In this document: piece after piece, positions 16,017-18,601 of the stretch
How positions within the stretch are numbered: the first letter of the stretch is position 1
Layout of the letters: the number at the start of each line of letters is the position of its first letter
Assembly (NCBI GenBank): GCA_030537315.1
Contig: JAUNNZ010000015.1
Span: forward strand, 1-47,657
DNA length: 47,657 nucleotides
Direction: 5' to 3'
DNA from: Bacteroidia bacterium
Lineage (GTDB): Bacteria > Bacteroidota > Bacteroidia > Bacteroidales > UBA932
Made by a program: the position numbers and the translations under genes
Notes under the pieces: generated by a model
Told to the model about the DNA's origin: nothing
The model's input: only the letters and a program-made list of their open reading frames with translations
Databases searched by the model: none

Positions 16017-16412
16017 TCAGTCCAAAAACGGATGTTTTTCCCGCTTTTTTCTTCGCTGCTCACGATTATCTTTCTCGCATTCAAGCACCTCTACCACAGC
16101 ATCCGTCATCTCCGTCGGCCAGGTTTCTCCGACCGGTTCAGGCTTTATCCAGGGGCAAAGCTTTTCATAATCTTCATCGAACACTATAGTATAGGGCGGG
16201 CCACATCGGTCAATAACCTCCATATAGAGTTTTCTTCCCTTGCCAATCAGAATTTGCGCGTGCCAGTTGTTATCGTCGCAATCCTTTAACTCATCAAAAA
16301 TCTCTTTGTTGATTTCATACAGTTTTAAACCATCTGCTGAGAATGAAGCCGTATAGAGATTTTTTTCCTCGTTGTAACAGGCTTTCCAGCCGCTTCCTTC
16401 TTTAAATTGCAT
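16017..16412 (-). CDS. Hypothetical protein, probably acquired from Firmicutes
   Basis: The 131-residue soluble protein begins MQFKEGSGWKACYNEE, is rich in Asp, Glu, Lys and Trp, and ends in a basic stretch and HPFLD. I know no function for it. Its ATG has a textbook SD, AGGAGG at 16420-16425 with a 7-nt spacer, which is foreign to Bacteroidota where the ribosome's anti-SD is normally unavailable. The gene is clearly richer in A+T than its neighbours. It lies 17 bp after the upstream gene, so the two form a unit. I infer recent transfer from a low-G+C gut Firmicute. Confidence 0.8.
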   Translation of the reverse strand: MQFKEGSGWKACYNEEKNLYTASFSADGLKLYEINKEIFDELKDCDDNNWHAQILIGKGRKLYMEVIDRCGPPYTIVFDEDYEKLCPWIKPEPVGETWPTEMTDAVVEVLECEKDNREQRRKKREKHPFLD

Positions 16413-16429: not shown

Positions 16430-17080
16430 TTATAGTCTTTCGTTGGAAATCTTCAAAAAACGTTTCAACGCATCGTTTGCAAGAATCTGATCAGTCACAC
16501 GTTCCGAAAATTTTTCTGCAAACATTTCTATAGTACAATTGACGTAAAAGTCCGGGGACAAAGTTTTAACGAACTCGCCACCTCCCATGCTGCCTGCGGA
16601 AATACCGGGAGTATAACAGTCATATAAGATATCCGGCGGCGCATTCAGATGGAATCGCAGGGTAATGATATCGTTTTCACAAGCAATCTTTATTTCGTCA
16701 TCAGCAATATGAATATCGCTGTGAAGGAACGTTAAACCATTTGCTTTTGCAAAACTTTCAGCAAATGTGTCATATTCTCCGCGAATAAGTACATTCCTGT
16801 CCCGGAGCTGTTTCAAAAGATTAGGCGAAACGGCTGCATCTGTAACCGTTCGACTGAAAATCAGACAATCTACATGTGAGAAAGCATCAAGAAATCCTTC
16901 TTTGATTTCCGTTATACCTTCACAGACATTGAGCGTATTAAATTGTTTCGTCCATTCTTTACCACTCTTCTCCTTGACGACGAGATCCTCAGGAGAGAGA
17001 AATCCTTTGCCATTTACCTCTAGAAGTCCACCGTAATGGTTGATATAGGTAATATTATCATTGTGTTCTGAAAAATACAT
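16430..17080 (-). CDS. Hypothetical protein, first gene of a probable transferred pair
   Basis: From the ATG at 17080 the protein has 216 residues (MYFSEHNDNITYINHYGG at the start). Its middle contains hydrophobic strands with a leucine-rich-repeat-like rhythm (ITEIKEGFLDAFSHVDCLIF). The C-terminal part has GISAGSMGGGEF and FAEKFSERV. No catalytic motif or signal peptide is seen. A longer frame starts at 17146, but the SD-like AGGAGAGGA at 17087-17095, 6 nt before 17080, decides the start. G+C is about 40 percent in sampled lines, against mid-50s around it. Function unknown; partner of the gene at 16017-16412. Confidence 0.78.
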   Translation of the reverse strand: MYFSEHNDNITYINHYGGLLEVNGKGFLSPEDLVVKEKSGKEWTKQFNTLNVCEGITEIKEGFLDAFSHVDCLIFSRTVTDAAVSPNLLKQLRDRNVLIRGEYDTFAESFAKANGLTFLHSDIHIADDEIKIACENDIITLRFHLNAPPDILYDCYTPGISAGSMGGGEFVKTLSPDFYVNCTIEMFAEKFSERVTDQILANDALKRFLKISNERL

Positions 17081-17086
17081 ATGCGT

Positions 17087-17095
17087 TCCTCTCCT
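17087..17095 (-). promoter_or_regulatory. SD-like sequence deciding the start at 17080
   Basis: AGGAGAGGA reads on the minus strand with 6 nt to the ATG. It offers two overlapping anti-SD matches and supports the shorter start. Confidence 0.7.
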
Positions 17096-17146
17096 CTTTT
17101 TTGACTCCCGAGTCATATCCGTCTTCCTTCCTGAATTCCTCGGCAA

Positions 17147-17317: not shown

Positions 17318-17521
17318 TGCACTTGGAGCGAAGCGATGGCGGCATCAGCCGCCGTGCCGGAGGCAGGGAGCGATGCGACCGACGGAGGCACCGGCAGGAA
17401 CGAAGTGGAGGCCGCTTACCCCTAAAAGGGGTCGGCCGCAGGCCGGGGGTTGAGAGGACGAAGTCCCACCACAAGCACGAGACGAAGAATGGCAGCCATC
17501 GGGCTGCCATTCGAAGTGAAG
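17318..17521. repeat. G+C-rich non-coding stretch, possible dispersed repeat
   Basis: These 200 bp have no convincing gene. The sequence is G+C-rich with recurring GGAG-GA-like words (GGAGCGAAGCGAT, GGGAGCGATGCGA, GACGGAGGCACCGG). It contains small perfect hairpins: AATGGCAGCC-atcg-GGCTGCCATT (17488-17511 region), ACCCCT-aaa-AGGGGT and CGGCC-gca-GGCCG. ORFs crossing it are low-complexity shadows. It lies between tRNA-Leu and the terminator on the transcribed minus strand, so it may be a 3' trailer or an inserted repeat element. The remaining 17188-17270 shows nothing I can name. Confidence 0.45.
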
Positions 17522-17601
17522 TGCGGGCGGTGGGACTCGAACCCACACGCCGGAGCACAAGATCCTAAGTCTTGCTTGTCTACCAATTTCAACACGCCCG
17601 C
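17522..17601 (-). tRNA. tRNA-Leu (anticodon UAG)
   Basis: The 80-nt minus-strand sequence folds as a class II tRNA. The acceptor GCGGGCG pairs with CGCCCGC and the discriminator is A. The anticodon stem CAAGA/TCTTG encloses CTTAGGA, giving anticodon UAG for CUN leucine codons. The T arm is GTGGG-TTCGAGT-CCCAC and a longer variable arm lies before it, as expected for leucine. No CCA is encoded; the next bases are CTTC. It sits about 6 nt after the rpsU terminator tail. Confidence 0.95.
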
Positions 17602-17607
17602 AGAATG

Positions 17608-17631
17608 AAAAGGCCGCGAAAAATCGCGGCC
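17608..17631 (-). terminator. Terminator after rpsU
   Basis: On the minus strand GGCCGCGA and TCGCGGCC form a perfect 8-bp stem around a 4-nt loop, followed by TTTT. It lies 21 bp after the rpsU stop and only 6 nt before the tRNA-Leu 5' end. Confidence 0.85.
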
Positions 17632-17651: not shown

Positions 17652-17846
17652 TTACTGCTCGTCCTCGAGACGCAGGTGCTGAACGTAGATAGCTTTCTGC
17701 ATCGCTTTACGCTTGATGACTGAAGGCTTCTCGAAGTTCTTGCGGGCGCGCATTTCACGGACGGCGCCGGTCTTCTCGAACTTTCTCTTGAATTTCTTAA
17801 GAGCCCTTTCGATGTTCTCACCTTCTTTTACTGGAACGATAATCAT
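17652..17846 (-). CDS. rpsU: Ribosomal protein bS21
   Basis: The 64-residue basic protein starts MIIVPVKEGENIERALKKFKRK and matches bS21 over its length. bS21 binds near the 3' end of 16S rRNA on the small subunit. In Bacteroidota ribosomes, bS21 with bS6 and bS18 holds the anti-SD so that SDs are not read. The leader carries AAGGGGGTGAT at 17854-17864, which can pair with the anti-SD over 11 bases, so low bS21 could unmask translation of its own message. The -7 element TACCTTTG is at 17881-17888 with TTG 19 bp further. A terminator follows. Confidence 0.97.
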   Translation of the reverse strand: MIIVPVKEGENIERALKKFKRKFEKTGAVREMRARKNFEKPSVIKRKAMQKAIYVQHLRLEDEQ

Positions 17847-17853
17847 GCTTTAA

Positions 17854-17864
17854 ATCACCCCCTT
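17854..17864 (-). promoter_or_regulatory. Extended Shine-Dalgarno of rpsU
   Basis: AAGGGGGTGAT on the minus strand can form 11 consecutive pairs, one of them G-U, with the conserved 16S 3' sequence 3'-UUCCUCCACUA. It ends 7 nt before the ATG. It is a likely translational autoregulatory site. Confidence 0.75.
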
Positions 17865-17880
17865 TTTTCTAAATGGACTG

Positions 17881-17910
17881 CAAAGGTAGAAAATTATTTC
17901 AATATATCAA
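17881..17910 (-). promoter_or_regulatory. rpsU promoter
   Basis: TACCTTTG (17881-17888) matches the -7 consensus and TTG (17908-17910) sits 19 bp upstream. Both lie at or inside the 3' end of the sirtuin gene, so rpsU can be transcribed independently. Confidence 0.7.
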
Positions 17911-18601
17911 CAATTTCCTTCATCCCTTCAGTCGCCACCTTTTTGATATGCCTGATCCTGTCGTCAAAGACCGTAACGTCGGCAGGGTCGATGATATAAA
18001 TGGGGATTTCAGGCCGCGCATAGCGGTATAGTCCTGCGGCTGGATAAACGTGAAGCGAAGTGCCGACTATCACTACTACATCTGCCTGGGAGACCAAGTC
18101 GATGGCGCGCGCCATCTTCGGGACGGCCTCGCCGAAGAAAACGATATGCGGGCGGTATTGCGAGCCGTTGGGAGCCTTGTCTCCCAAAGATACCGGCTCA
18201 TATCCGCAGTCGACGACAAATCTTTCCGAAAAGCCGTCTTCATCGTTGAAAGTGTTCTCCGGTCGGATTTTGGTCGCTTCGCCGTGCAAATGGATCACGT
18301 GCGTCGACCCTGCACGCTCGTGCAGGTTGTCGATGTTCTGGGTGATCACGTCTACGATGAAACGATCTTCAAGTCCGGCAATAAGCCTGTGCGCCTCGTT
18401 GGGCCTGACTTCGGCCAGCTTTGCCCTCTGCATGTTATGAAAGTCGAGGACCAGCTTGCGGTTGCGGTAATAGCCTTCGATGGAAGCGACCTCCATAGGG
18501 TCGTAATTGTCCCAGAGACCGCCGTTGTCACGGTAGGTTCCCAGGCCGCTCTCGGCGCTGACTCCGGCGCCGGTGAGAACGGCAATCCTTTTCTTTGTCA
18601 T
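17894..18601 (-). CDS. SIR2-family NAD-dependent protein deacylase
   Basis: Sirtuins remove acyl groups from lysines using NAD. The 235-residue protein has the NAD-binding motifs TGAGVSAESGLGTYR, TQNIDNLHERAG and HLHGE, and later VGTSLHVYPAAG. The usual four zinc-binding cysteines are missing: the region between HGE and PHIVFFGE holds only one Cys, a feature of some short Bacteroidota sirtuins. At the place where CobB has Tyr and Arg for succinyl-lysine, this protein reads FHNMQR, so desuccinylase activity is uncertain. The ATG overlaps the stop of the ATPase gene upstream (ATGA), so the two are co-translated. Confidence 0.9.
   Translation of the reverse strand: MTKKRIAVLTGAGVSAESGLGTYRDNGGLWDNYDPMEVASIEGYYRNRKLVLDFHNMQRAKLAEVRPNEAHRLIAGLEDRFIVDVITQNIDNLHERAGSTHVIHLHGEATKIRPENTFNDEDGFSERFVVDCGYEPVSLGDKAPNGSQYRPHIVFFGEAVPKMARAIDLVSQADVVVIVGTSLHVYPAAGLYRYARPEIPIYIIDPADVTVFDDRIRHIKKVATEGMKEIVDILK

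Follow-up and report, generated by a model that had tools for sequence, protein, structure and literature searches.

An extended Shine-Dalgarno sequence ahead of rpsU in a Bacteroidales family and its probable role in bS21 autoregulation

The rpsU locus and its complementarity to the 16S rRNA tail

The stretch of DNA analysed here, referred to as the window, comprises the 47,657 nucleotides of contig JAUNNZ010000015.1 from a Bacteroidia bacterium whose family, designated f1 in our comparisons, we take to be GTDB UBA932. The rpsU gene and the elements around it all lie on the minus strand:

17894-18601, minus strand: Sir2-family gene, upstream neighbour of rpsU (Pfam)
17881-17888, minus strand: TAnnTTTG box TACCTTTG, with 34 nt between the box and the rpsU ATG
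17864-17854, minus strand, 5' to 3': AAGGGGGTGAT, the first-noted Shine-Dalgarno (SD) match, read from the sequence
17856-17867, minus strand: extended SD AAAAAGGGGGTG, pairing with the genus 16S tail over 12 consecutive positions (duplexfold, -17.0 kcal/mol)
17847-17855, minus strand: 9-nt spacer from helix to ATG, read from the sequence
17652-17846, minus strand: rpsU, ribosomal protein bS21, 64 aa (ORF; Pfam PF01165, Ribosomal_S21, 66 bits)
17612-17631, minus strand: terminator-like GC-rich hairpin between rpsU and the tRNA (palindrome listed on the plus strand only)
17521-17601, minus strand: tRNA-Leu, downstream of rpsU (ARAGORN; Rfam)

On the minus strand the hairpin is followed, by eye, by TTTTCATT, and rpsU looks monocistronic. 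The TAnnTTTG box, presumably the Bacteroidota promoter -7 element, recurs in 121 of 123 SD-bearing family leaders, in 96 of which 30-34 nt lie between its end and the start codon; since 34 nt separate box and ATG in the window, the rpsU leader would be short (about 30 nt) and mostly made up of SD and spacer. A Sir2 match is found somewhere in 66 of the rpsU loci compared.

No 16S gene was found in the rpsU-bearing assembly (1,900,915 bases, 60 contigs, 82% complete), and the tail used for pairing is that of the genus, ACACCUCCUUUUU (GGAACACCUCCUUUUU), which differs from the E. coli tail. A tail pattern asking for CCUCC within 3 mismatches matched 18 of 61 genomes; the 16S end reads GGAACACCTCCTTTTTGGAG in all 12 same-genus genomes whose tail was read, and the CCUCC anti-SD is kept in all 12, as read with a pattern that itself asks for CCUCC with at most 3 mismatches. 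A pattern leaving nt 1543 free matched 77 of 199 family genomes and all listed copies carry T there, while the tails read in other Bacteroidales families (f4, f15, f19, f24, f25, f41) are of the TTTCT type.

With the genus tail as partner, the window leader gives 12 consecutive pairs including one G.U (AAAAAGGGGGUG, 17867-17856, -17.0 kcal/mol by ViennaRNA duplexfold) in a helix that ends 9 nt ahead of the ATG and that, with its one G.U, is among the weakest in its genus; against a C1543 tail the same leader forms 10 pairs (-15.6). A sequence-only reading of the window had placed an 11-pair match at AAGGGGGTGAT, 17854-17864, and had called the spacer slightly long. Sequence and position are borne out, on the minus strand, and an E. 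coli-type tail does give at least 11 pairs, but with the genus tail the helix has 12 and is shifted upstream: the final AT of AAGGGGGTGAT adds no pairs (A.A mismatch) and five A upstream extend the helix. The spacer, for its part, is ordinary, with 9-13 nt from G run to start in 121 of 123 family leaders, and the same distance is 8-12 nt in all 10 other-family rpsU leaders that have the core. At -17.0 kcal/mol with the genus tail, the pairing is stronger than the -13 kcal/mol criterion for rpsU. Pairing energies here are from duplexfold and those of McNutt et al. 2023 from free_scan; two f164 leaders give -20.8 by duplexfold, near the published Flavobacterium johnsoniae value close to -20.

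Genome background and folding of the leader

The own genome was scored over 94 pieces including the window (1,657,500 of 1,900,915 bases, or 87%, with 2775 N; assembly completeness 82%). ORFs were taken as the longest of at least 60 aa with at most 30% overlap, and 1406 of 1479 were scored, the 73 others having run from a piece edge or lacked upstream sequence; starts were set mechanically, each gene being allowed its most favourable ATG over a range of 30 codons, a choice that benefits the rivals of rpsU. Within this 87% of the assembly, rpsU ranks first among the 1406 scored ORFs at -17.0, followed by the leaders of an nqrA-like gene (named by eye, -14.9), a 131-aa orphan (-14.6) and rpsR (-14.1), and of 1406 mock windows two reach -13 and none reaches -14. 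A chance match of the rpsU leader is ruled out by the genome background. No leader stronger than -14.6 had appeared in a first pass over 662,673 bases and 532 ORFs of at least 100 aa.

Over the 1281 ORFs of at least 100 aa, mean pairing before starts is weaker than in mock windows (-3.06 versus -3.82), as expected if SDs are mostly unused. The strong end is in excess, with 27 leaders at -11 or stronger versus 13 mock windows. Given this excess and the other fairly strong SDs (nqrA-like, orphan, rpsR), control may be less exclusive here than in Flavobacteriales.

The orphan ORF lies in the window itself (16017-16412, minus strand); it has no Pfam match, and its SD, AGGAGGTG, is the third strongest. 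Its neighbour at 16430-17146 (minus strand) has no Pfam match either, and at E 1e-4 no relative of either was found among the other loci, mostly short flanks. A second small SD group in this SD-poor genome comprises L394:4366, L394:7294 and L296 (-12.2 to -14.9), genes named by eye that we take to resemble Na+-NQR or Rnf subunits.

Other ribosomal protein operons are governed by a regulatory RNA fold or a protein-binding leader, and the same could be imagined for rpsU, with bS21 as the ligand. In the window leader the SD can pair with codons 2-4, and its mean unpaired probability is 0.21 (not predicted free); in the best folds of 111 leaders at least 4 of the 7 core bases are paired in 94 and at least 2 core bases pair with coding sequence in 81. 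Such control is nonetheless barely credible, as the leaders gain no folding stability over shuffled sequences (mean z -0.05 over the 111 distinct leaders; +0.69 for 22 SD-less leaders), the Rfam search of the window sees only tRNA, and the leader is only about 30 nt long. With z about 0 versus shuffles, a conserved leader fold is ruled out.

Distribution among relatives and covariation at 16S nucleotide 1543

We compared 61 genomes (the own, 36 of the same genus and 24 from other families of the order), of which 55 yielded rpsU: the own, 32 same-genus and 22 other-family. All 32 same-genus leaders pair at -17.0 to -19.3, and none of the 22 from other Bacteroidales families passes -13, the best reaching -10.6. 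Of 583 named loci the best 80 were kept; they include Ca. Cryptobacteroides (Bacteroidales per NCBI) and Ca. Cacconaster, names that suggest Cryptobacteroides or a close relative as the genus of the window, and 79 of them lie below -13, the exception being Porphyromonas loveana; the genus set and the named loci overlap in some genomes (L042/L133, L049/L156). An SD-plus-start pattern matches 253 of 299 family genomes, some by chance (11 of 299 for the reversed pattern), and overlooks leaders with GTG starts, ML starts or a different spacing. No rpsU was found in 23 of the 46 genomes that it missed; in the remaining 23, there are 12 with an SD below -13 that has a GTG start (seven cases), another spacing or other bases, one with a broken core (-10.9) and 10 with none, one of which, L258, is a possible contaminant by tree position. 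The SD-less genera are g33 (8 of 8 genomes with rpsU found) and g48 (1 of 1), so the control is not needed by every relative. Lack of the match in close relatives, which the sequence-only reading had named as refuting its proposal, is seen in two genera of the family and in none of the 32 genomes of the genus.

Outside the family, an order-wide pattern was noisy, matching 68 of 385 genomes; when all 77 match rows were read, only two proved to be bS21, both from genus g184 of family f41 (6 f41 genomes sampled), with leaders at -21.4 as scored with the tail of other f41 members. Because these matches are also rpsU, at least two Bacteroidales families carry the extended rpsU SD. A class-wide pattern (8 of 296) was too strict to give a frequency and supplied comparison leaders from four families.

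Several observations accompany this distribution. GTG is the rpsU start in the SD-bearing family members L022, L108, L253, L256, L260 and L263-L266, which may reflect a weaker requirement for ATG behind so long an SD. Three other-family loci, L041, L053 and L055 (f20, f4, f2), as well as L031 and L011, have rpsU leaders with AGAAAGAGGTAT-like runs (-10.1 to -10.6) that look like weaker or eroded extended SDs and bear on gain versus loss. Assembly CAMKRY01 holds two different rpsU copies (L119, L155), both with extended SDs, likely through contamination. Viral bS21 is represented by five loci (39-44% identical), and the 386-kb viral contig L324 (IMGVR_UViG_3300028591_000070) carries a bS21-like gene with the SD AAGGAGGTGAT (-20.1 with the C1543 tail). 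In a bS21 tree of 74 of the 168 sequences (64 columns, most forks unresolved), 34 family rows of SD-bearing genera form one open group (89/77) apart from other SD rows, and the SD-less g33 and g48 form another (98/97); transfer from Flavobacteriales is not supported by this tree.

For a base-by-base comparison we assembled 135 family leaders (the own, 32 genus, 79 named and the 23 misses), of which 123, mostly from one genus, have the core GG[AG]GGTG; the other 12 were left out. Opposite nt 1543, 119 of the 123 carry A, three G and one T, and the family tails read have U1543, tails and leaders being compared as sets, not paired genome by genome. In other families the base is G in 8 of 10 leaders and A in 2 of 10. 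C1543 was read directly in four G-leader genomes (G781, G813, G842, G724), the f41 tail (C1543) was taken from two other members (G605, G702) and no 16S tail was found for f127; both A leaders belong to the distant family f140, where the tail could be read in one genome and has U1543. As there are two independent switches at most, this natural covariation is suggestive and not a statistic, yet it backs pairing between the rpsU leader and the 16S tail, and it argues, from natural sequences, that nearly the whole tail, up to close to its end, takes part in the pairing.

The frequency of A in the leader is 97-100% opposite nt 1540-1543, 69% opposite 1544, 35% at the next position and then 74% and 66%; because A-richness returns past the tail, part of the A run may be background. 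The purine run could accordingly be kept for SD-less initiation or by a constraint on transcription start, with pairing incidental, and the A-richness beyond the paired stretch and the adjoining promoter box fit that explanation. We regard it as highly improbable, since none of the 22 other-family leaders reaches -13, leader and 16S change in step at nt 1543 in two lineages, the core varies only from A to G at one place (in 123 leaders, by the definition of the set) and rpsU ranks first in its own genome. Complementarity to the 16S tail, first rank in the genome and conservation across the genus and much of the family are established properties of the rpsU leader, and its pairing with the tail in the cell is supported by the covariation.

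Probable autoregulation by bS21

In F. johnsoniae, rpsU is the preferred message of ribosomes that lack bS21, and an rpsU'-gfp fusion yields little protein from wild-type ribosomes and 3-5 times more from bS21-deficient ones, Tyr54 of bS21 being said to redirect the 16S tail, which is modelled to U1544 (McNutt et al. 2023, PMC9976891; further background in PMC8710568 and PMC10783764). Tyr54 is present in the window bS21 and in 167 of the 168 bS21 sequences compared, the remaining one being cut short. The window bS21 matches chain 7jil_z (phmmer, E 4.7e-22), and bS21 and bS18 align with the 7jil chains over most of their length, a whole-chain comparison that does not resolve single contact residues. 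We consider it probable, by analogy with F. johnsoniae, that the rpsU leader serves as an extended SD through which bS21 regulates its own synthesis by the same mechanism. In complete ribosomes the 16S 3' tail would be held in the bS21/bS18/bS6 pocket and could not read SDs, as suggested by Tyr54, the similarity to the 7jil chains and F. johnsoniae; in 30S subunits without bS21 the tail would be freed and could zip with the rpsU leader over about 12 pairs, and bS21 synthesis would start and last until bS21 is replenished. Release of the tail on bS21 loss, raised rpsU translation and the response to bS21 level are modelled here on F. johnsoniae.

The leader could also act as a strong constitutive ribosome-binding site that keeps bS21 output high whatever the bS21 content of the ribosomes. 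Sequence by itself would look the same under feedback and under mere strength, and the genome has other SD genes; the weaker-than-mock average of SD-like pairing before starts, the retention of Tyr54 in bS21 and the higher rpsU'-gfp yield of bS21-deficient F. johnsoniae ribosomes (PMC9976891) nevertheless make this explanation unlikely.

The autoregulation that we favour would closely resemble that of F. johnsoniae, where the rpsU SD likewise forms 9-13 pairs, is stronger than the -13 kcal/mol limit and ranks first in the genome, SD-like pairing is depleted elsewhere and bS21 carries Tyr54 (PMC9976891); the published test takes rpsU as strongest among ribosomal protein genes, and here it was ranked among all scored ORFs. 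The differences are that the order here is Bacteroidales, that the tail ends in UUUUU and not UUUCU, with a matching A in the leader, that pairing in the genus and named loci (-17.0 to -19.6) is weaker than in the f164, f127, f117 and f41 leaders (-19.9 to -21.4), and that rpsR also keeps a fairly strong SD. Leaders of rpsR (bS18) pair at -9.3 or stronger in 15 of 15 genus loci scored (two without a start were dropped) and in 10 of 14 from other families. SDs of rpsR in Bacteroidales were described by Jha et al. 2021, as cited in PMC9976891 and PMC8710568, and they too belong to a gene whose product takes part in holding the 16S tail, but their core is shorter, their pairing weaker and their occurrence not limited to the family of the window. 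Chryseobacterium and relatives, with the alternative anti-SD UCUCA and compensating rpsU SDs, offer another case in which 16S tail and rpsU leader change together (PMC9976891, PMC8710568); there the CCUCC core is changed, whereas here the change lies outside the core, at nt 1543.

According to McNutt et al. 2023 (PMC9976891), rpsU is the winner below -13 in about 80% of Flavobacteriales, nearly all Sphingobacteriales, all Chlorobia, about half of Chitinophagales and about 20% of Cytophagales, and no Bacteroidales meets the rpsU criterion. The sequence-only proposal that the rpsU pattern extends to this order, where that survey had no case, is upheld by the 32 of 32 genus leaders. As the survey sampled complete-level genomes of species representatives, it probably missed the Bacteroidales trait because complete genomes left out a mostly uncultured family. 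In literature from 2020 on, with preprints and most subscription papers outside the search, only work of the McNutt et al. group joined rpsU, Bacteroidales and the anti-Shine-Dalgarno, and within the same bounds no paper was found on Cryptobacteroides together with Shine-Dalgarno.

Finally, we tentatively suggest, at somewhat short of even confidence, that bS21 feedback evolved in one Bacteroidales family, or was kept there despite loss in most of the order, and that the 16S tail co-evolved with one mRNA, U1543 replacing C1543 together with an A in the rpsU leader and, seemingly, separately in f140. If so, selection on the final 16S nucleotides beyond the anti-SD core would come chiefly from a single gene. 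The published absence of the rpsU criterion in Bacteroidales is contradicted as a general rule, the trait is present throughout a group of gut and rumen bacteria that is for the most part uncultured, and a single family that holds both SD-bearing and SD-less genera provides a natural test.
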